From a virus, in IMG/VR virus record IMGVR_UViG_3300031873_000035, positions 1-27,345 of that record: a stretch of 27,345 nucleotides of DNA; one strand, given 5' to 3'. The position numbers and the translations under genes are program-made. Below, in pieces: positions 2,902 through 22,576 of this stretch. Under the pieces are notes generated by a model. The model did no database searches. It was not told where the DNA came from and was given only the letters and a program-made list of their open reading frames with translations. Every line of letters begins with the position of its first letter. Positions within the stretch are counted from its first letter, which is position 1.

Positions 2902-4335
2902 ATGGGAGAAAATATAGAGAGAATATTCATTCTTATAATTCTTAATTTAATTGTTTATTTTAGGCTCTTGCGTTATGGATACATAATTGATGACAACTGT
3001 ATTCCTCAAGGCAAAGGCAAGAATTTCCTACAGACTTTCTGGTGGCAACTGACAAGCCGTAAGTATTCTAATCTTCAGGTAGAACATCTGCAGCGCCTCG
3101 CAGTCCACATTATAAACTCCTGTCTTATCTATATAGCCTTTGGCAAGACCGATGTCTCATTTTTGGCAGCCTTACTATTCAGCGTAAATCCCTGGGGCAA
3201 CCAGGTCCCTTGCTGGCTTAATGCTATTGGATATGGCATGTCCTGTATGCTGGTCCTTCTAATGGTAATCTTTAAGGGTTGGGCTTGGGTGTTTTATCTC
3301 TTTACCCTTCTTTGGCACCTTACACCGGCCTTTGCGCCTTTCTTATTTCTCTATATAGGTCCCTGGCAGAAGGTCTTTATAATCATTCCTTATATGCTTA
3401 TTGTTTTTTTATCCAAAGGCAGAGTTCCTCTTTACAAGGTCCAGGATAACGCTACCATGTTTGAGAGAGGAAAATACGCCACCTGGCCACTCACACATAT
3501 CTATCCTAAAAAATTTATCTTTATCGTTAAGACCTACGCCTACTATACCCTCAATATTCTCTTTCCCAGGAGGCTTGGCCTCTTTCACATTTTTGGATAT
3601 TCTTTTGGTCTGGCTACTACCGATACTAACAAATGGCAAAAAGTCTGTCCTTTGTTTTTTGCCGGAATAGGATTGATGATTACGAATCTCTATTTGATCA
3701 TAAGATTCTGGGGGACTCCTTTAAGCCTAGGTCTTTTTTGGTATAACCTGTTTATTGGCCAGTGGTGTAATTTTGTGATTCTCTATCAGACTATCACGGA
3801 TCGTTATTCTTATCTGGCTCAGGTAGGGATGATGTTGGCTTTAGCTTATATACTCAGCATTATGCCTTATGGATACTATATAGCCGCCGTATTTTTGACT
3901 TTCTACACCACAAAGCTCTCTTATTACTTACCTGCCTTTAAATCGATGGAAGATTATATTGATATGAATTTGGTAGAATTCCCGGATAACTATGCCTGCT
4001 GGAATTGGGTGGGGATATTGGAATCTGGTAAGAATAGGAAATTCTCAGCCATCCGGGCTTGGGCTAAAGGATTGCATTACAGACCTAATGACTACCGGCT
4101 TAATTTTAACTTAGGACAGCTCTTAAGGATTATGGGTTATTTAGATGAAGCAGAGAAATACCTTTACCAGGCCGGTCTTGCACTTCAAGATGAGAAAAGG
4201 TTGGATCGCAGGTTAGGAGAGGTCCAGGCAATAGAGGAAGCCTTGGGGGATATAAAGAGAAGGAAAGCGGAGATCAAGGCAAGGCGCGCAGGGATTATAA
4301 TTGACAGGCCCGAGGGTGGAATAATAAAGCCATAA
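2902..4335 (+). CDS. GT-C/TMTC-like polytopic glycosyltransferase with TPR tail
   Basis: A 477-residue membrane protein (ATG 2902; TTG 2899 also possible) with about nine hydrophobic segments. Residues 30-31 are an Asp-Asp pair in the first loop after the first membrane helix, as in GT-C enzymes that use lipid-linked sugars. The following RLAVHIIN (65-72), LLFSVNPWGNQVPCW and later TDRYSYLAQVG (300-310) match the order of TMTC-type O-mannosyltransferase motifs (lnlllHlln, allFavHP-t-eavaw, aeRYlYlpsiG). Residues about 383-430 hold a canonical TPR (AW-KGL--RPNDY--NFNLGQLLR--GYLDEAEKYL). The predicted role is transfer of a sugar to a protein or surface polymer on the outer face of the inner membrane. 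This is unusual phage cargo. The family assignment is from motif memory; an O-antigen ligase-like or glucosyltransferase role is the main alternative. Confidence 0.6.
   Translation: MGENIERIFILIILNLIVYFRLLRYGYIIDDNCIPQGKGKNFLQTFWWQLTSRKYSNLQVEHLQRLAVHIINSCLIYIAFGKTDVSFLAALLFSVNPWGNQVPCWLNAIGYGMSCMLVLLMVIFKGWAWVFYLFTLLWHLTPAFAPFLFLYIGPWQKVFIIIPYMLIVFLSKGRVPLYKVQDNATMFERGKYATWPLTHIYPKKFIFIVKTYAYYTLNILFPRRLGLFHIFGYSFGLATTDTNKWQKVCPLFFAGIGLMITNLYLIIRFWGTPLSLGLFWYNLFIGQWCNFVILYQTITDRYSYLAQVGMMLALAYILSIMPYGYYIAAVFLTFYTTKLSYYLPAFKSMEDYIDMNLVEFPDNYACWNWVGILESGKNRKFSAIRAWAKGLHYRPNDYRLNFNLGQLLRIMGYLDEAEKYLYQAGLALQDEKRLDRRLGEVQAIEEALGDIKRRKAEIKARRAGIIIDRPEGGIIKP
4301..4329 (+). promoter_or_regulatory. 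Weak candidate promoter ahead of the structured RNA
   Basis: A perfect TTGACA lies at 4301-4306, and an A/T-rich stretch at 4322-4329 (TAATAAAG) could serve poorly as a -10 at 15-17 nt spacing. Initiation would fall around 4335, just before the helix that opens at 4349. It lies inside the end of the membrane protein gene, and the -10 is poor. Confidence 0.25.
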
Positions 4336-12403: not shown

Positions 12404-12435
12404 GGTCAGAGACTATTCTCTCTTGACCTTTTTTT
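12404..12435 (+). terminator. Rho-independent terminator after the major capsid gene
   Basis: GGTCA plus GAGA (12404-12412) pairs with TCTC and TGACC (12419-12428, one bulged T) and is followed by seven T residues (12429-12435). It separates the capsid gene from the connector genes. The next possible ATG is only four bases after the T-tract. Confidence 0.85.
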
Positions 12436-12439
12436 ATGT

Positions 12440-12673
12440 ATGGCTGATTTTAAAGTTAAGAGATTTAATTCTGCTCAGGAGAAAGCTGGAGGCTTACTCC
12501 TGAAAAAGGCAATAGAGGATAAGGAGGCACGCCGGGAAGCCTCTAATAAAGATATTGCTCAAGGCGTAAAAGAGATTGCTGGGGACTTAGGTTATAAATT
12601 TAAAGGTAGAGTGATTTTTTCTGGAGGATCTGAGGCTTATCAAAAAGGCTACGAGAAAATAAACTGGAGGTAG
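12440..12673 (+). CDS. Unknown 77-residue helical protein
   Basis: I choose ATG 12440 (MADFKVKRFNSAQEKAGGLLL). The alternative TTG 12395 has a ribosome-like AGGGGG but would encode the terminator hairpin as its first residues. From 12440 there is no Shine-Dalgarno site, because the start sits four bases after the T-tract. The protein is charged and mostly helical, ending in a Gly/Lys-rich segment (GYKFKGRVIFSGGSEAY). Family unknown; it lies in the head-completion region. Confidence 0.5.
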   Translation: MADFKVKRFNSAQEKAGGLLLKKAIEDKEARREASNKDIAQGVKEIAGDLGYKFKGRVIFSGGSEAYQKGYEKINWR

Positions 12674-13598: not shown

Positions 13599-15095
13599 AT
13601 GGCAATAGAACTTGACTACATGGAATACTCCTCCGACGCCCTTGCACAGGCGGCGTATGTAACGAATTCTACATTTCCTCGTTCCAACGCCGACATAGAC
13701 GATGAGGATATGGAAGATATTACTGATTGGGCAGATATAGATGAGGGTGATAGTGTAAGTTCTCAAGCTACTTTTGATAGTAAATCTTGTATGAAACTTC
13801 TTACGGGCGACCAAGCAACAGATGGTCGGGCAAGTAGGACACAAGATATAGGTTCTTTTGGGGCAAGGACAGTATTTTCAATGAGTTTATATCACGATGC
13901 AATAGGAACAACTTGGGAAGATGCCTTTCAGTTTGCGGCGGCTGATGGTTCAACAAAGCTTTCTATTCTATATGGTTCGGATGGTTTATATGTTTACAAT
14001 GGTGCGGCATATGTAGAGGTAGGCACTAATTTAGTTGTCCAGGATACTTGGCAGGAATGGACTTTTGATGTTGACTGGACAGCACAAACAGTAGATGTTT
14101 ATTTGGATGGAGTATTAAAAGTTTCAGACGTAGATTGTAGTTGGGCAAGTGCGGATACAGAAGGAACTATAGTATTTATTCAGTATGGATATAGTAGCAG
14201 TAATTTATTGACCTACATAGACTGGTTTAAGGCTGGGACATCAACAAGTGATATTATTGGTGGTTCTCTCCAATGCTACTCCGAAGCCACCATCAAAACT
14301 CAAGGTTCATATTCATTAAAAGGAATAGCAGCAATTACAAGTAGTCTCAATAAAACCCTCACCCGCACAGTTTCACCGACGATAGATTTATCTGATAAAA
14401 ATACGATTAAATATTGGGCTTATGCTTTGCGGACAGGAAGCAATTTTAAGATAGGATGGCGTGATAGTGGATTAAATGTTATAGAACATACCCCAAATAT
14501 AATTCAATCTAATACTTGGGAAGAACAAACTGTGGATATATCAGCGGTAACCAATGCCGATAAGGATGCGATAGACAGGATTATTTTTACAGTTTTAAAT
14601 GCTGACGCTGCTAATATTATTTATCTGGACAAGATGTTTTCGCCACAACAATTTACCAAAACTTTTGACGAAACCTTAACCCTTTCCGAAGTAATCTCTA
14701 AAGCACCCGCAAGAACTTTCCTTGAAACAATAACCTTATCCGAATCCAGTTTTATTAAAGGAATTGGAAAAACTTTTACTGAAACCATAACTTTATCCGA
14801 AACATTCGGTAGGGCAATAAGCAAACTTCTTAAGGATACAGTTACTTTAACGGAAGTAGCGGCTAGAGATATTGCCATATTTTTCCAAGAGACCATTACT
14901 CTCACCGATAATATAGCTAAAGGGATCACCCGCACTCTTTCCGATAGCCTTTCACTTACAGATGTATTTACGAAGGTTCTTAAATGGCTTCATATTTCGC
15001 ATATCGCGACTACCTGGAATAAGGTAACCAAAACATTAACTAACTGGACTAAAACAAACAGGACAAATGCCTCTTGGCATAAAAAGTATGAGTGA
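13599..15095 (+). CDS. Adhesin/fibre-like virion protein with LamG-type domain and tandem repeats
   Basis: 498 residues, starting three bases after the adaptor stop. Residues about 45-215 look like a LamG/concanavalin-type beta sandwich (ARTVFSMSLYHDAIG, WTFDVDWTAQTVDVYLDGVLK, TYIDWFKAG). Residues about 226-350 form a second beta module (QGSYSLKGIAAI, TIKYWAYALRTGSNFKIGWRD, WEEQTVDISAV). Residues 355-463 carry six tandem repeats of 18-19 residues built on F-x-E-T-I-T-L-S-E, and the C-terminus is Trp/Thr/Asn rich (HIATTWNKVTKTLTNWTKTN). Such sugar-binding modules and repeats fit a surface-binding fibre or tail appendage. The AAYVTN at residues 17-22 and LQCYSEATIKTQGSYSLK after the LamG part look like one module split by an insertion. 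Confidence 0.65.
   Translation: MAIELDYMEYSSDALAQAAYVTNSTFPRSNADIDDEDMEDITDWADIDEGDSVSSQATFDSKSCMKLLTGDQATDGRASRTQDIGSFGARTVFSMSLYHDAIGTTWEDAFQFAAADGSTKLSILYGSDGLYVYNGAAYVEVGTNLVVQDTWQEWTFDVDWTAQTVDVYLDGVLKVSDVDCSWASADTEGTIVFIQYGYSSSNLLTYIDWFKAGTSTSDIIGGSLQCYSEATIKTQGSYSLKGIAAITSSLNKTLTRTVSPTIDLSDKNTIKYWAYALRTGSNFKIGWRDSGLNVIEHTPNIIQSNTWEEQTVDISAVTNADKDAIDRIIFTVLNADAANIIYLDKMFSPQQFTKTFDETLTLSEVISKAPARTFLETITLSESSFIKGIGKTFTETITLSETFGRAISKLLKDTVTLTEVAARDIAIFFQETITLTDNIAKGITRTLSDSLSLTDVFTKVLKWLHISHIATTWNKVTKTLTNWTKTNRTNASWHKKYE
14661..14987 (+). repeat. Six coding tandem repeats, 54-57 bp each
   Basis: Encodes TFDETLTLSE, TFLETITLSE, TFTETITLSE, LLKDTVTLTE, FFQETITLTD and TLSDSLSLTD, each followed by 8-9 more variable residues. 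One unit is 19 residues, the others 18. Repeat number could vary between related phages by slippage or recombination. Confidence 0.8.
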
Positions 15096-16838: not shown

Positions 16839-17546
16839 ATGGCAGATAAGAATTTAATAATATACTCAGCTTCGCATGCTTATACTGGTGGCGCTGCTGG
16901 TCATGAGGGCGTTTACGAAATAGATGAGAATTTTTCTACCTACCACGGAGACGAGTATTCTCTTGGTGGAGGTAGTTGGGCTGGAAGTGCATCTAAAACA
17001 ATAATATCGGAACACACCTTTTCGAGACCTCTTACAGTAAATTCAATAAAATATAGACTTCTTTATCAATGTTCTGCTGGTGGTCCTGATGGTGGTCGTG
17101 ATTATGCCTATGAAGTTTATGTTGCCTATAAGGTGGGCGAAACCTGGACAAAAATATTAAATGCTTCCGGCTCCGGTGATGGTAATAGTGGACCCAATGT
17201 AGATACGGGAGAAGTTACATTTTCTACTCCGGTGGCCAATGTCACTGCTATCAAGGTCTATCTCTATGTATATTCTCACACTGCTGAAGGCGGTATTAGT
17301 GGACGCGCATACATCTATGAGATCGAAGCATTCGGTCAGCCCTATAATGATATTGGGATAAGATTTTATAAAGGTGCGGCAGTTTACAAGATAGGTGTTG
17401 AGCCCTTACTTTCTACTCACAAATTAAGGATCAGGAAAGGTTCAACCACTTACGGAATACCGTTATTAGCAACGACAGATGCTCTTGCGAGCCCGATAAG
17501 GATATATGATGGAAGTGCAGTTAAAAGTTTACCACTAGTAGATTAA
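16839..17546 (+). CDS. Receptor-binding-like protein with galactose-binding-type domain and KG repeats
   Basis: 235 residues. About residues 25-165 form a beta-rich domain (WAGSASKTIISEHTFSRPL, INS-like SIKYRLLYQCSAGG, YEVYVAYKVGETWTKIL, VANVTAIKVYLYVYSH, IYEIEAFGQ) with the order of a discoidin or F5/8-type carbohydrate-binding fold. Residues about 170-235 hold three short repeats: IRFYKGAAVYKIG, LRIRKGSTTYGIPL and IRIYDGSAVKSLPL. Such repeats end many phage adhesion proteins. Likely contacts the host surface. AGGGAGACAGG precedes the ATG; its stop is one base before the next gene. Confidence 0.55.
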   Translation: MADKNLIIYSASHAYTGGAAGHEGVYEIDENFSTYHGDEYSLGGGSWAGSASKTIISEHTFSRPLTVNSIKYRLLYQCSAGGPDGGRDYAYEVYVAYKVGETWTKILNASGSGDGNSGPNVDTGEVTFSTPVANVTAIKVYLYVYSHTAEGGISGRAYIYEIEAFGQPYNDIGIRFYKGAAVYKIGVEPLLSTHKLRIRKGSTTYGIPLLATTDALASPIRIYDGSAVKSLPLVD

Positions 17547-17547
17547 A

Positions 17548-19335
17548 ATGCCAAAACAAACAATACCCAGATTCCTTCCTAATAAAGGGATAGTTTTAGA
17601 CAAACCCGAGGAATTCCTCTTGCAGAATTTCTCTGTCTATTCGCGCAATATGGAATTCTACAATGAATTACTCCAAGGCAGATTAGGCCTACAGAAATTC
17701 TCCACTACTGCGCTGCCGGGAGCAGTTTTAAAATTTGACCAGTTCTGGCTTTATACTCCTGCCGGGAGCTGGTTCTTTATGATTTGCACCCAAAAGGATA
17801 TCACCTATTATGACTTCCCTAATTCCAGATTTGTATTCCTGAATAAAATCTACAATGCCGGGACCATTGAAGTAAAGACAGGTGAACTCAATAAAGTCTA
17901 TGGCACAAATACCCTCTGGTCCACTAATTTAAAGGCTGGGGATTATATCAAGATCGGGGCTGGGAATTTACATAGCGGGGCTACCTGGTATGAGATTGAT
18001 ACAGTTAATAGCAATACTCTGCTTACTTTAAAGACTAATGCACCTATAACCACAGCTGGGGCAAGTTATGAGGCAAGGAAGATTTTTACTGGAGGCACGA
18101 CGGACTTTTGGAATGCAAAGACTTTTCAGGATGATAATTTAGGTTCTGTCTGGATTGCTACCAATGGCAGAGATCTCCCTGTTTATTGGGATGGAGCAGA
18201 TCAAGTGGTAGATTTAACCGGTTTACCGAGTGGTTTTAAGAGTGCTAAATATATCGAGATTTATAAAAATAGGGTATTGTTTGCTTGGACTGTCGAGGGG
18301 AACCTTAATCAACCGGCAAGGGAAAGGTGGTCTGCTCCGGGGAATTGTCTCAGTTGGGATGCCGCGAATTTAAAAGATTTTATAGATGAGGATAGTTGGA
18401 TTACAGGCATAATCAATTTTTCTAATTACCATATTGTTTTTAAAGAGAGAGAGGCTTATATCGGCAGACCGGCAGATCCTCCTTACGACTTTGATTTTGA
18501 GAAGTCAACCACCTGCACCGGCTGCTATGCCGGCCAGTCAATAATCGATATGAGTGATTACCTCTATTACTGGGGGATAGATAACCATTTTTATCGCTGG
18601 AATCTCCTGCGGGAGGAATCTATCTCGGACCTTATATTTTCTTGGACCAAAGAATTCGATCCTAATTTAGAATCATCTATCTTTGGCTGGCAGGTAGAAT
18701 ACAAGAATCAGCTACGCTGGTTTGTGCCTCATGCTGATGTTGACTACCTCAATTTCGTGGTAGTTTTTGACTATACACAAGAAATCCTGCAGATCTGGGA
18801 ATACGAGCAGGAACAGGCCTGTTGCTCCATCGGAGAATATGTGAATCTTGAGGACCTTTTTTGCGACGATCCTATTTGGGGGGAATACTATGTTGACGAG
18901 CAGGAAGGCTACTGGGATGACCGTAAATTCCTGGAAGGCGCGCCAATAATCGTTTATGGAGGTTATGATGGTTATGTAAGGAAGGCAGACCAGGGAATCC
19001 AGGATGACGGCGTAGATTATACCAGGTTATTCAGATCTGTCAGGGATAACTTTGATATGCCTGATCAGTTTAAAAGGCTTAGTAAACAGGAATTCTGGTT
19101 TGAGAAGGAGATTGCCGGCTCTGAAGTTTCTATTAAACTCAGGAGGGACGATAACGAACTCTGGGACGATGAGACTAAGACAATATCTCTTTACCATGCT
19201 ACAAAAGATATTATAAAGGATTTTGTTAGATGGGATAAACACGCTAGGAATTTTCAAATTGAGATAAGTGCGACGAATCATTTTGCGCTGTTAGGATATT
19301 TGAACGAGATCTATCCTAAACGAAAGGTAAAATAA
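17548..19335 (+). CDS. Tail nozzle/hub-like beta-propeller protein
   Basis: 595 residues without membrane segments, rich in Trp, Tyr and Asp, with repeating beta blades: VLKFDQFWLYTPAGSWFFMICTQKDITYYDF, SVWIATNGRDLPVYWDG, SAKYIEIYKNRVLFAWT, ISFSNYHIVFKEREAYIGR-like, LYYWGIDNHFYRWN, VVVFDYTQEILQIWEYEQ and IIVYGGYDGYVRKADQG. This is the pattern of the large tail protein of short-tailed phages, which forms the nozzle under the adaptor (as T7 gp12 or P22 gp10 do). It starts one base after the previous stop and overlaps the next ATG. A fibre-hub role is the alternative. Confidence 0.6.
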   Translation: MPKQTIPRFLPNKGIVLDKPEEFLLQNFSVYSRNMEFYNELLQGRLGLQKFSTTALPGAVLKFDQFWLYTPAGSWFFMICTQKDITYYDFPNSRFVFLNKIYNAGTIEVKTGELNKVYGTNTLWSTNLKAGDYIKIGAGNLHSGATWYEIDTVNSNTLLTLKTNAPITTAGASYEARKIFTGGTTDFWNAKTFQDDNLGSVWIATNGRDLPVYWDGADQVVDLTGLPSGFKSAKYIEIYKNRVLFAWTVEGNLNQPARERWSAPGNCLSWDAANLKDFIDEDSWITGIINFSNYHIVFKEREAYIGRPADPPYDFDFEKSTTCTGCYAGQSIIDMSDYLYYWGIDNHFYRWNLLREESISDLIFSWTKEFDPNLESSIFGWQVEYKNQLRWFVPHADVDYLNFVVVFDYTQEILQIWEYEQEQACCSIGEYVNLEDLFCDDPIWGEYYVDEQEGYWDDRKFLEGAPIIVYGGYDGYVRKADQGIQDDGVDYTRLFRSVRDNFDMPDQFKRLSKQEFWFEKEIAGSEVSIKLRRDDNELWDDETKTISLYHATKDIIKDFVRWDKHARNFQIEISATNHFALLGYLNEIYPKRKVK

Positions 19336-19634
19336 TGCTGTTTAAACATCGGCCCAAGACCGAATGGCCGGATACAAGTAAGATTAAAGATGAACCTACC
19401 CAGGATTTTGCCACGGATATAGGGAAATTAGTTTTAGATAGCCTGCGCAATATCTACGACGATTTAAAAGTTCTGGAAAAAATCGAAGAAGTAAGTAATC
19501 TTCCTACTGCATCAATAGATAATAAGAGAAAAATACTTATGGTTCCTCAAGCTGGTGCGAAAGATAAGATTTATATTTGTCGATACAATAGTAATACTTC
19601 AACTTATAGTTGGGATGAAGTTAATTTTTTATGA
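19335..19634 (+). CDS. Small virion-module protein, end overlapped by HNH cassette
   Basis: 99 residues starting on the last base of the nozzle gene, behind AAAGGTAAAATA. The first 55 residues are helical and acidic (TQDFATDIGKLVLDSLRNIYDDLKVLEKIEEV). The rest looks like a small beta hairpin domain (KILMVPQAGAKDKIYICRYNSNTSTYSWDEV), a pattern found at fibre ends. Its last 31 bases are also read on the other strand as the end of the HNH endonuclease, so its C-terminus may have been shaped by that insertion. Confidence 0.55.
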   Translation: MLFKHRPKTEWPDTSKIKDEPTQDFATDIGKLVLDSLRNIYDDLKVLEKIEEVSNLPTASIDNKRKILMVPQAGAKDKIYICRYNSNTSTYSWDEVNFL

Positions 19635-20230
19635 AAACTTTGATGTTCTCCTTGATTAATAAACAGTTGAAGATTCTTAGGTCTATCATCTTGTTTATTC
19701 TCAATACTATCGAGAGGATACTTTGTCCCTTTATGATGCACAACTTCCTCAGGTATAAGATAGCGGCCAATCATCTTTTCCATAACGAGATGAGAGCGCC
19801 TAACATATCCCGCGGAGCTACAGAAAGGGTGTTGAGGTTTATGGATAAGGATATATCCTTGAGAGTTAATATTTATTCCACCTTTCCAGTTAGGATGTTT
19901 AGGGCCTTTATGTTTACCAATATTAGAATTTTTTATTTTTTCTCGCCATTCCTTAGAAAGTCGAGGTCGTTTTTTACCTTTCCAATAGGAAATATGTCCC
20001 TTTTTAAACGAACCAGACGTAACTTTTTTTATTTTATTAAGCCACAAGTATGGTCTTTTTTTATTTTTCCAATAACCTTCTTTTCCTATATGAGCGATAC
20101 TCATTTTCTCTCTTGTCTTAATAGAATAAATATTTATTTTGCCTTTATTCCAAGGTATATTGCCTTTTTTAAAAGAACTTTTGGTAGGCGGGTTTCCTTT
20201 TGCGTATTGATTTCCTTTTTGAAATGGCAT
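19604..20230 (-). CDS. NUMOD3/HNH homing endonuclease (cassette 1)
   Basis: 208 residues from ATG 20230, chosen because GGAGG lies six bases before it. The N-terminal 125 residues contain repeated NUMOD3-type DNA-binding motifs (FQKGNQYAKGN, FKKGNIPWNKGK, FKKGHISYWKGKKRPRLSKEWREKIKNSN, HPNWKGG). The C-terminus is an HNH nuclease: RRSHLVMEKMIGRYLIPEEVVHHKG with the His-His pair, then DDRPKNLQLFINQGEHQSFH. Such enzymes cut DNA at a target site and let their gene copy itself into it. It is antisense to the late genes and carries its own promoter and leader RNA. A longer relative of the endonuclease at 21955-22398. The + strand open frame over it is a shadow. Confidence 0.88.
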   Translation of the reverse strand: MPFQKGNQYAKGNPPTKSSFKKGNIPWNKGKINIYSIKTREKMSIAHIGKEGYWKNKKRPYLWLNKIKKVTSGSFKKGHISYWKGKKRPRLSKEWREKIKNSNIGKHKGPKHPNWKGGININSQGYILIHKPQHPFCSSAGYVRRSHLVMEKMIGRYLIPEEVVHHKGTKYPLDSIENKQDDRPKNLQLFINQGEHQSFHKKLTSSQL

Positions 20231-20249
20231 CTTATCCTCCAAATTAAAA

Positions 20250-20343
20250 GGGCAGCTTTCAGGTTGCTAACGGAGAGACGGTTAAGTATCTCCACCTTAC
20301 TCGCTACCCAGTTTAGATATAAAAAATCCGTCTGCCCGCTAGC
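20250..20343 (-). ncRNA. Conserved pseudoknot leader RNA of HNH cassette 1
   Basis: Read on the minus strand. Helix P1: GCTAGCGG (20343-20336) with CCGTTAGC (20273-20266, one G-T pair) and AGACGG (20333-20328) with CCGTCT (20281-20276). Within it lie conserved CGGATTTTTTAT, GAGTAAGGT and ACTTAACCG, and a hairpin AGGTG-GAGA-TACTT (20297-20284). GGGTAGC (20309-20303) pairs outside P1 with GCTGCCC (20256-20250), making a pseudoknot just before the endonuclease ribosome site. Cassette 2 keeps both helices with different bases, which is strong evidence for a selected RNA. Confidence 0.8.
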
Positions 20344-20350
20344 TAATATT

Positions 20351-20378
20351 AGTATAGTATATTCAGGAGGAATGTCAA
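20351..20378 (-). promoter_or_regulatory. Sigma-70-type promoter of HNH cassette 1
   Basis: On the minus strand TTGACA (20378-20373), 16 nt, TATACT (20356-20351). Initiation about seven bases later falls at 20344, exactly where helix P1 of the leader RNA begins. The same -35, spacing and -10 occur before cassette 2. The -35 box lies between the ribosome site and the ATG of the opposite GNAT-like gene. Confidence 0.8.
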
Positions 20379-20383
20379 GATAA

Positions 20384-20803
20384 ATGATACTACAAATGGA
20401 TAATATTTTATTTATACCAAAGGTTGTAGCACTAGTAAAGAATTTTCTAACTATTCCGGTAGGAAAGTTTGAGGATATGGTTCTAAATGCGATGAGCAAT
20501 AAAGATTCTCTTTTATTGATAGATAAGAAAGATGATATTCTGCGGGGATTCCTCTTTGCTACCATAGAAGGGATGGACGGAGAAGATGTGGTATTTATAC
20601 ATTTAAGCTATGTAGATCCTAAATTGTTTAAAATCGGTAATGAGTTATTGGCAAGAGTAAAACTCTGGGCTAAGGAACACAAAACAAATTGGATTTACAT
20701 GATGACTGACCGCAATATCAAAGGATTCCAGAAGAAGTATGGATTTAAATTTTACACACATATCTTAAGACGGAGGGTTCAAGATGAGATACTTAAAAAG
20801 TAG
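20384..20803 (+). CDS. GNAT-fold acetyltransferase-like protein
   Basis: 139 residues. The order of segments fits the GNAT fold: LLLIDKKDDILRGFLFATIEGMDGEDVVFIHLSYVDP (strands 2-4), a helix KIGNELLARVKLWAKEHKTNWIYMMTD, then NIKGFQKKYGFKFYTHILRRRV, the typical late G-F-x-K-x-Y-G-F-x-x-x element. The usual Q/RxxGxG/A acetyl-CoA loop is not clear, so the protein may be a structural relative without catalysis. It sits among internal virion genes, a place where short-tailed phages can carry GNAT-like proteins. AGGAGGA lies 12 bases before ATG 20384; ATG 20396 is the alternative start. Confidence 0.6.
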   Translation: MILQMDNILFIPKVVALVKNFLTIPVGKFEDMVLNAMSNKDSLLLIDKKDDILRGFLFATIEGMDGEDVVFIHLSYVDPKLFKIGNELLARVKLWAKEHKTNWIYMMTDRNIKGFQKKYGFKFYTHILRRRVQDEILKK

Positions 20804-21680
20804 AATAAGCAGATTTTTTAACCGGTTATTTCCCTGTAAATTCAATGAGCCGTTGTGTAAGGATAATTTCTTCGGATGCCGGTGCGGTAAGAATTTTTTC
20901 AGTAGTAAACAGACGACGACAGGGGTGGAGTCTATTGCAGATCCTTATAAAGATGTCCGGGAGAAGCTTAACGCCTGGCTTACCGGTCCTACTGGCATAG
21001 GTCAACCTGCCGAGCAGTATAAAGGCGAAATGGTGGCTCCGATGTCCGAACAGGAGAAAAAATCTCTTGGTTGGTTAGGAGAATATGAGACAGCCGGTCC
21101 TTCTGCTACCCGGACCGCAGCTACTGGTGAGATAGGCAAGATTTTAGGGGGCCAATACGATCCTACCAGCTCTCCTTATTACCAGGCGGTTAAAGCTGAG
21201 GCAGCCAGGAATTTAGAAAAGTCTATGTCTGATATTGCGGATGTGTCTGCTGGGAAGGGTCGGTATATGACCGGAGCAAGGGTTTCAGAACAGGGGGAGG
21301 CATCGAAAGATATTGCGCTTGGCTTAAATACCGTCTTAGGCCAGTTAGCAGACCAGGAAAGACAGAGGATGTTTGGAGTCCTGCCTATTGCTGAACAGTA
21401 TGCTACTACCGAAGAGGAAGCACCTTTAAGGAAGACCGCGGCATTGCAAGAGTATGGTGCTTTACCTAGAGCACAACAACAGGCTTATGATCAGGCTATC
21501 TATAATGAATGGCTCAGGTCTACTCAAGAATGGCCGTTGAATATCGCGCAGTTGGCATCTGGAGTGCAACAGGCACCACTTTATGGCCAGACGGGATATC
21601 AACCTTCTCAGTTTAGTCAGTTAGTAGGACCTATATCTACTATAGCAAGTAAGATTTTTGGAAATAAAAAAACTGCATAA
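20784..21680 (+). CDS. Putative internal virion (ejection) protein, small
   Basis: 298 residues, overlapping the GNAT-like gene by 20 bases, with CGGAGGGTTCAAG before the ATG. The first 48 residues are basic with four to five cysteines (FPCKFNEPLCKDNFFGCRCGKNFF). The rest is Ala/Gln/Glu-rich and helical: LGWLGEYETAGPSATR, SSPYYQAVKAEAARNLEKSMSDIADVSAGKGRYMTGARVSEQGEASKDIALGLNTVL, LPIAEQYATTEEEAPLRKTAALQEYG. This pattern is common in phage internal or DNA-transfer proteins that are ejected into the cell. A membrane-associated function after ejection is inferred from related phages, not shown here. Confidence 0.55.
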   Translation: MRYLKSRISRFFNRLFPCKFNEPLCKDNFFGCRCGKNFFSSKQTTTGVESIADPYKDVREKLNAWLTGPTGIGQPAEQYKGEMVAPMSEQEKKSLGWLGEYETAGPSATRTAATGEIGKILGGQYDPTSSPYYQAVKAEAARNLEKSMSDIADVSAGKGRYMTGARVSEQGEASKDIALGLNTVLGQLADQERQRMFGVLPIAEQYATTEEEAPLRKTAALQEYGALPRAQQQAYDQAIYNEWLRSTQEWPLNIAQLASGVQQAPLYGQTGYQPSQFSQLVGPISTIASKIFGNKKTA

Positions 21681-21695
21681 AATAAGGAGGGAATC

Positions 21696-21953
21696 ATGCC
21701 ATTACCAGCATTGTTAGCATTTTTAGCAAATCCGGCATTTTGGAAAGGTGCAGCAGAAGTAGGGGCATCTTTCGCAAGTTCAAAAGCAGGTGGAGGAGGA
21801 GAAGCAGGAATACCGGGAGCAGCAGGTCAACAGATTCCTCAGTTTCAGACTGCTAAGGCCCCAGCCTCTTTGATGGGATTCCCGAGTATGCAGAATACAA
21901 ATTATGGGGATATTATTGCAAAAATGCTTTCAAAGTATAAAACGACAGGATAA
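21696..21953 (+). CDS. Small Ala/Gly-rich internal-module protein
   Basis: 85 residues; AATAAGGAGGGAATC precedes the ATG. A hydrophobic N-terminal segment (PLPALLAFLANPAFWKGAAEVGASFASS) is followed by a Gly-rich linker (KAGGGGEAGIPGAAGQQIPQF) and a short C-terminal helix. It resembles small ejection-complex or internal proteins, which often carry one amphipathic membrane-seeking helix. Family not recognised. HNH cassette 2 starts two bases after its stop. Confidence 0.5.
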   Translation: MPLPALLAFLANPAFWKGAAEVGASFASSKAGGGGEAGIPGAAGQQIPQFQTAKAPASLMGFPSMQNTNYGDIIAKMLSKYKTTG

Positions 21954-21954
21954 T

Positions 21955-22398
21955 TTATAAGGAGGTTGTTTTTAAAGAAAGATGTTCCCTTTGATTAACA
22001 AACAATTCAAGATTCTCTGGTCTATCATCAAGAGTATCACTATTGATATGATGCACTACCTCTTCAGGTCTAAGATAACGACCAATCATTTGTTCCATGA
22101 CAAGATGAGAACGCAATATATATCCATTAGACCTACAAAAAGGATGAGTAGGTTTCCGAATAAAAATTCTTTCATAATCTCTACATTTAAATTTTCTTAT
22201 ACCACCTTTCCAATTCCCGGGTTTACCACCATTGGCAAAAAATTTATTTTTTGCTCTCTTTATTTTTTGTTTAGTTTCTTCGCTTTGTTTCTTGCCTTTA
22301 TTCCAAGGCATATTGCCTTTTTTAAAAGAACCTTTAGTAGGTGGATGACCTTTTTGAAATCCTTGCGTAGATTTACGTTTATAAATTCCTGTTGGCAT
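21955..22398 (-). CDS. NUMOD3/HNH homing endonuclease (cassette 2)
   Basis: 147 residues from ATG 22398 with GAGGTGAG before it. The N-terminus has NUMOD3-type motifs (FQKGHPPTKGSFKKGNMPWNKGK, SEETKQKIKRAKNKFF, GNWKGG). The C-terminus has the HNH core LRSHLVMEQMIGRYLRPEEVVHHINSD, then LDDRPENLELFVNQREHLSL, close to the classical phage HNH consensus. It lacks about 60 central residues of extra NUMOD3 repeats present in cassette 1. Predicted DNA-cutting homing enzyme that maintains its own cassette. Both His of the HH pair and the Asn of the HIN are present, so it looks active. The + strand open frame over it is a shadow. Confidence 0.9.
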   Translation of the reverse strand: MPTGIYKRKSTQGFQKGHPPTKGSFKKGNMPWNKGKKQSEETKQKIKRAKNKFFANGGKPGNWKGGIRKFKCRDYERIFIRKPTHPFCRSNGYILRSHLVMEQMIGRYLRPEEVVHHINSDTLDDRPENLELFVNQREHLSLKTTSL

Positions 22399-22418
22399 TT
22401 TCTCACCTCAAAAATTAA

Positions 22419-22513
22419 GGCGCTGTTCAGGTATCTAAAAGAGCAACGGTTAAGTTACTCAACCTTACTAGGCGCCGATTTTGGACATAAAAAATCCGCT
22501 ACTCTTTTAGATA
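22419..22513 (-). ncRNA. Conserved pseudoknot leader RNA of HNH cassette 2
   Basis: Minus strand. P1: TATCTAAAAGAG (22513-22502) with CTCTTTTAGATA (22443-22432), 12 perfect pairs, extended past a 2x2 loop by GCGG/CCGT (22499-22496 with 22449-22446). The conserved CGGATTTTTTAT, TAGTAAGGT, ACTTAACCG and ACCTGAA stretches match cassette 1. Hairpin AGGTT-GAGT-AACTT at 22465-22452. Pseudoknot GGCGC (22476-22472) with GCGCC (22423-22419). Helix sequences differ from cassette 1 while pairing is kept. Confidence 0.8.
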
Positions 22514-22518
22514 ACATA

Positions 22519-22546
22519 AGTATAACAGAATTTAATTTAATGTCAA
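22519..22546 (-). promoter_or_regulatory. Sigma-70-type promoter of HNH cassette 2
   Basis: Minus strand TTGACA (22546-22541), 16 nt, TATACT (22524-22519), with TG one base before the -10 (extended -10). Predicted initiation near 22512 coincides with the first bases of helix P1. Same architecture as cassette 1 although the spacer sequence differs. Confidence 0.8.
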
Positions 22547-22576
22547 TAGAATTTTCTAATACAGGAGGAATTTAAA

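Follow-up and report, generated by a model that had tools for sequence, protein, structure and literature searches.

A covarying pseudoknot leader RNA upstream of homing endonuclease genes in uncultured phages

Both minus-strand HNH endonuclease genes of the virus examined in this study are preceded by the same structured RNA, at the place and on the strand given by the original prediction and with the P1 and pseudoknot strands named there. In all, 26 distinct IMG/VR contigs carry 35 distinct copies of the RNA, with as many as four in a single contig (G018); this count leaves out near-duplicate contigs and includes 33 copies beyond this pair. It has a defined structure, a fixed position and a modular relationship to the genes that follow it, and it would act in cis on the expression of the next gene. 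The interpretation preferred here, at a probability of roughly 45%, is that the RNA is a modular cis-acting 5' leader of phage mRNAs that controls the expression of the next gene, with the pseudoknot deciding the use of the start site. Phage genes controlled by structured 5' leaders are already known, whereas the family itself appears to be new; it lies outside Rfam 15 and was encountered in none of the papers searched.

The window, i.e., the whole stretch of DNA that was analyzed, comprises a complete IMG/VR virus record (27,345 bases). Its plus strand carries a terminase, a P22-like portal and other virion-type genes, and two small minus-strand genes sit between plus-strand genes of this type. 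The gene behind RNA copy B (21955-22398, minus strand) encodes a 147-aa protein with Pfam matches to HNH_3 (8.4e-8) and NUMOD3 (2.3e-5), while the gene behind copy A (19604-20230, minus strand, start ATG at 20230) encodes a NUMOD3-like/HNH endonuclease of 208 aa that, taken alone, gives a weak NUMOD3 match and nothing else in Pfam, and was assigned by its alignment with the copy B protein across the HNH region and with other HNH_3 relatives. With an HNH and a NUMOD DNA-binding motif, and an intergenic location antisense between virion-type genes, both share these features with free-standing HNH homing endonuclease cassettes. As predicted, HNH_3 and NUMOD3 are the only recognizable domains, and RuvC- or PLMP-like parts are lacking. 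The strand opposite each RNA and HNH cassette forms a single open frame (19631-20383 and 21982-22575, plus strand); many relatives have such frames too, some of them continuous in frame with the virion gene that follows, and they are probably a by-product of composition.

The order of elements in the cassettes is fixed, consisting of a sigma70-type promoter, the RNA, a U-rich tract, a Shine-Dalgarno sequence (SD) and the AUG. In copy B, on the minus strand, the promoter (22519-22546) comprises a -35 box TTGACA (22546-22541), a gap of 16 nt and a -10 box TATACT (22524-22519); the RNA has a model span of 97 nt (22416-22512), and an A+U tract with the SD (GAGG, 22409-22406) occupies 22406-22418. 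The minus-strand promoter of copy A (20351-20378) has the same boxes (TTGACA, 20378-20373; TATACT, 20356-20351) 16 nt apart, followed by an RNA of ~97 nt (20248-20344) and the U-rich tract UUUUAAUUU with the SD GGAGG at 20240-20236 (together 20236-20249). The -10 box ends 6 nt upstream of RNA position 1 in most copies, both window copies included, which puts the expected start of the transcript at P1. The window copies thus have their own sigma70-type promoter ~6 nt before the RNA and an AUG 15-22 nt after it.

Three helices, P1, PK1 and PK2, show strong covariation and, together with an AGUA/GAA core, are present in both window copies. P1 joins 22496-22511 to 22449-22434 in copy B and 20328-20343 to 20281-20266 in copy A. 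The original prediction had given its strands correctly but split them into segments, since P1 proves to be continuous; it spans ~17 bp in copy B and, with one mismatch, ~16 bp in copy A. Pairing extends symmetrically outward from an inner CGG/CCG (CAG/CUG in L035 and others). Inside P1 lies a conserved U-rich loop, L1, of ~18 nt (AUUUUUUAUGUCUAAAAU; AUUUUUUAUGUCCAAAAU at 22478-22495 in copy B), followed by the 5' strand of a second helix. The first six pairs of that helix form PK1 (99.4% paired, 38 double-change cells); in copy B, GGCGCC (22471-22476) faces AGCGCC (22424-22419), which contains the GGCGC/GCGCC pairing as predicted with one mismatch besides, and in copy A, GGGUAGC (20303-20309) faces GCUGCCC (20256-20250). 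Next comes an internal loop in which AGUA (22466-22469 in copy B) faces GAA (22428-22426), probably of the sarcin-ricin/loop-E type to judge from its motif, and then the four pairs of PK2 (97.3% paired, 39 double-change cells), which occur as AGGU/ACCU, AGUC/GACU, GGUG/CACC, AGCG/CGCU and GAGU/ACUC. The PK2 strands are AGGU and ACCU in both window copies (22462-22465 with 22432-22429 in copy B; 20294-20297 with 20264-20261 in copy A). PK1 and PK2 are therefore one helix split by the AGUA/GAA internal loop, and its 3' strand, which reads ACCU-GAAA-GCUGCCC at 20250-20264 in copy A, adjoins P1. A second conserved loop, L2, ends in ACUUAA ahead of the P1 3' strand (22450-22461 in copy B). The stretches AGTAAGGT and ACCTGAA had been read as conserved; they are partly the two strands of PK2, and the AGGU/ACCU pairing and the AGUA/GAA internal loop make them one helix.

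These pairings were evaluated in 28 distinct copies anchored at the inner end of P1, the GUA core and GAA, with the helices free of gaps. Standard pairs filled 93.7% of the pair cells over all helices compared to a mean of 67.4% in shuffled alignments; since the anchors are self-chosen motifs, such counts lean mildly toward structure, a bias addressed by controls in which the 3' partners were slid by 1-3 columns and pairing fell to 38-46%. Double-change cells numbered 187 (56 in the shuffled sets), and none of 500 shuffles was equally high. Chance is excluded as the source of the pairing, and these helices bear out the earlier proposal of selection on RNA structure. The exception is a small AAG/CUU hairpin that had been placed within P1, for which 114 of 500 shuffles were as high and covariation did not exceed column make-up; this hairpin, which is also mutually exclusive with PK2, was rejected.

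The loops L1, L2 and AGUA/GAA are strongly conserved in sequence, with GUA in 25 of the 28 copies and GAA, which served as an anchor, in all 28. A leader peptide could start in L1, where most copies have AUG-UCU-AAA opening a short frame (MSKIGGE*) whose translation would unfold the pseudoknot; an AUG occupies this site in 24 of 32 copies, and in many copies a frame of 6-7 codons stops within the AGUAA loop. However, AUA replaces it in copy A, and other copies have AUA, UUG or none, the distance from AUG to GUA ranges from 18 to 23 nt and covers all three frames, and the upstream GGA sits paired in P1. Because neither the start codon nor the frame is conserved, a leader peptide is very unlikely.

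The copies were collected by several routes. A DNA pattern derived from both window copies found L001 and L003, a second DNA pattern found L023, a search with the copy A protein found L035, and the remaining copies came from a protein-profile scan, two further patterns, and the covariance models R1 and R2. A third model, R3, built from 33 copies that all lie outside the window, recovers both window copies (E = 5e-19 for copy B and 5.5e-18 for copy A). Scores of R2 are bimodal, with family members at 60 bits or more, bar the weakest (L233; 30.8 bits, E 6e-4), and 155 other loci, ~80 of them with RNA-less HNH relatives, gave one model match, at E 0.44. A weak R3 match in the window itself (12418-12500, plus strand, E 0.05) was taken as chance. 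Among pattern matches from genome contigs (L024-L033), eight were rejected by the model and the others are similar; several of them are one and the same coding sequence, which we take to be rpoB. Model scans of 398 and 289 whole genomes from two phyla found none, which is weak evidence of absence because 10-14 candidates were scored per genome, and the INPHARED phages gave no DNA match to one 97-nt RNA copy (L169). The homologue search that the original prediction proposed thus added 33 copies by these routes taken together, and the Rfam comparison it also proposed, with HEARO and other families, returned no family of Rfam 15 matching the leader RNA at gathering or relaxed thresholds. The open-access papers searched contain no description of it. 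Together, the absence from Rfam, the covariation, and proteins without RuvC- or PLMP-like parts sustain the prediction of a new HNH-leader RNA class.

The genes that follow the RNA are mostly, though not only, nucleases. For 29 of the 35 copies the next gene is of the HNH_3/NUMOD3 type, an association that would be expected of a nuclease partner RNA acting in a HEARO/omega-RNA-like ribonucleoprotein, as the original prediction had considered. However, the RNA also precedes HNH_1/HNH_5 proteins (L131, L232), an ORF that combines a zinc ribbon and an HNH-like end (L279), an HTH_36/RepA_N-like protein (L150:1296; weak Pfam matches) and a protein without Pfam support that is presumably replisome-organizer-like (L233). 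At L162 (2780-2950), the RNA is intact (100 bits) while the HNH gene behind it has been cut down to a C-terminal remnant, and a close HNH relative on the tree (L034) has the promoter and SD but lacks the RNA. Two related phages carry antisense HNH genes at one virion-gene junction, with the RNA in G001 (17430-18096) and without it in G023 (13724-14352); these HNH genes differ from each other, and G023 was discarded as an empty site relative to G001 because an RNA-less HNH gene occupies it. On the HNH tree, whose resolution is poor, association with the RNA changes 11 times compared to a shuffled mean of 21.6. The small size of the window proteins (147 and 208 aa), their lack of RuvC, and the absence of an Rfam HEARO match also argue against a partner role. 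Given other kinds of genes downstream, close HNH relatives without RNA, and a copy that persists after the loss of its nuclease, an obligate nuclease partner is highly improbable; the other downstream genes and the RNA-less relatives instead indicate a modular leader.

By their structural genes, the RNA-bearing phages divide into several groups. An O-antigen-ligase-like protein is common to 11 of 23 RNA-bearing contigs, which perhaps hints at a shared host group. Membrane proteins with an O-antigen-ligase/TPR-like look occur in the window (2902-4335, plus strand), in contigs G007, G009 and G021, and in others, and a second such family is common to the window, G009 and G021; these are a possible clue to the host or to surface modification. 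In addition, the HNH ORFs of L001, L148, L150, L195, L230 and L282 end in a common tail, (S/E)(E/D)IIFDGRxL.

The position of the RNA relative to the start codon varies little. Of 34 copies, 18 have the AUG 19 nt past the end of the pseudoknot and 33 have it 15-22 nt past that point, and the SD follows the pseudoknot by 7-11 nt in nearly all copies. This RBS-adjacent place with fixed spacing suits a leader better than a self-cleaving ribozyme; a ribozyme might be imagined from the compact pseudoknot and conserved loops, but none of the Rfam ribozyme families matched, even at a relaxed E-value, and this explanation is scarcely credible. The spacer between pseudoknot and SD is 76% U and 20% A, compared to 25% U and 36% A in the pre-SD region of RNA-less relatives. 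In the preferred model of a cis-acting leader, transcription would start at the 5' end of P1, judging from the promoter position; P1 closes, and directly behind it, as the covariation shows, a pseudoknot is formed by the second helix, with its loop-E-like internal loop between PK1 and PK2. The end of the pseudoknot, ~19 nt before the AUG, would correspond to the edge of the 30S subunit footprint, with only the U-rich single strand between pseudoknot and SD. A factor from the phage or its host may bind the conserved loops, and ribosome access to the adjoining start site would depend on whether the pseudoknot is bound or free, such that expression of the homing endonuclease, and sometimes of replication-type proteins, would be timed or limited.

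The fixed AUG spacing favors translational control, as does the U-rich strand that separates the pseudoknot from the SD. The same U-tract after a GC-rich helix would fit transcriptional attenuation equally, in which RNA polymerase would terminate or pause at the second helix and U-rich tract, a pseudoknotted form of intrinsic terminator, unless the helix is blocked by a ligand, a protein or a ribosome; 25 of 35 copies have at least six U among the first 8 nt past the helix, and the PK1 duplex averages -8.7 kcal/mol. However, a hairpin-terminator scan, which covers short-loop hairpins only, was silent at the helix/U-tract position, the tract is frequently broken by AA close to its start, and fixed spacing to the AUG would be superfluous for a terminator. 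Attenuation therefore keeps some probability but is rather unlikely. Burial of the SD by the leader was not predicted above the control, with a mean unpaired probability of 0.47 in nested folds (the only folds considered) and 0.44 with a shuffled leader, and the leader yielded no anti-SD element and no alternative fold. An unburied SD and a P1 that starts at the predicted transcription start would also suit a constitutive insulator, i.e., a 5'-terminal stem-pseudoknot with no regulatory role that guards against 5'-dependent mRNA decay and leaves the RBS accessible, but the conservation of L1, L2 and AGUA/GAA exceeds the needs of a stability element, and this explanation is considered unlikely. 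More speculatively, the family might be a new class of sensing leader, a promoter-plus-switch module that moves with homing endonucleases among unrelated phage lineages and answers a signal of the infection state, be it a small ligand or a factor of phage or host origin, timing selfish nucleases and replication proteins; this broader proposal is tentative and more doubtful than cis control itself.

In T4, many free-standing homing endonucleases rely on the expression signals of their host phage. Translational pseudoknot leaders and riboswitches (rpsO/S15, preQ1 classes) place a pseudoknot beside the SD and have conserved loops; unlike these, the RNA described here has no sequence or Rfam match to them, and it precedes mobile or replication genes of phages. 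It resembles HEARO, the omega-RNA of IscB, in being a structured RNA that precedes an HNH-containing gene of mobile elements, but differs from HEARO with IscB/IsrB in having no Rfam match, small proteins without RuvC or PLMP parts, and other genes downstream as well. The mRNA of T4 gene 32 has a pseudoknot and an A+U-rich sequence ahead of the RBS, and in T4, T2 and RB69 this small operator pseudoknot, ~67 nt upstream, controls translation (PMC3014915). The likeness is in anatomy only (a phage 5'-leader pseudoknot, then an A+U-rich single strand, then the RBS), with no homology shown; here, in contrast, P1 has ~16 bp, a loop-E-like motif lies within the second helix, and most of the genes encode endonucleases. 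Translation of T-even homing endonucleases is likewise controlled by 5' RNA structure near the RBS, in the form of simple hairpins (I-TevI/II/III, segB, Aeh1 mobE, seg43(25)) that in most cases bury the RBS, although the seg43(25) hairpin, as the leader RNA here, lies directly upstream of a free RBS (PMC2988022). Unlike these hairpins, the present leaders belong to a single conserved family of pseudoknots, carry their own promoter and are not predicted to bury the SD. This apparently uncatalogued structured RNA family of uncultured phages, with its unusually clean covariation, supplies a defined secondary structure with a probable loop-E motif and a covariance model, and bears on how free-standing homing endonucleases may take their own expression control between phage lineages.
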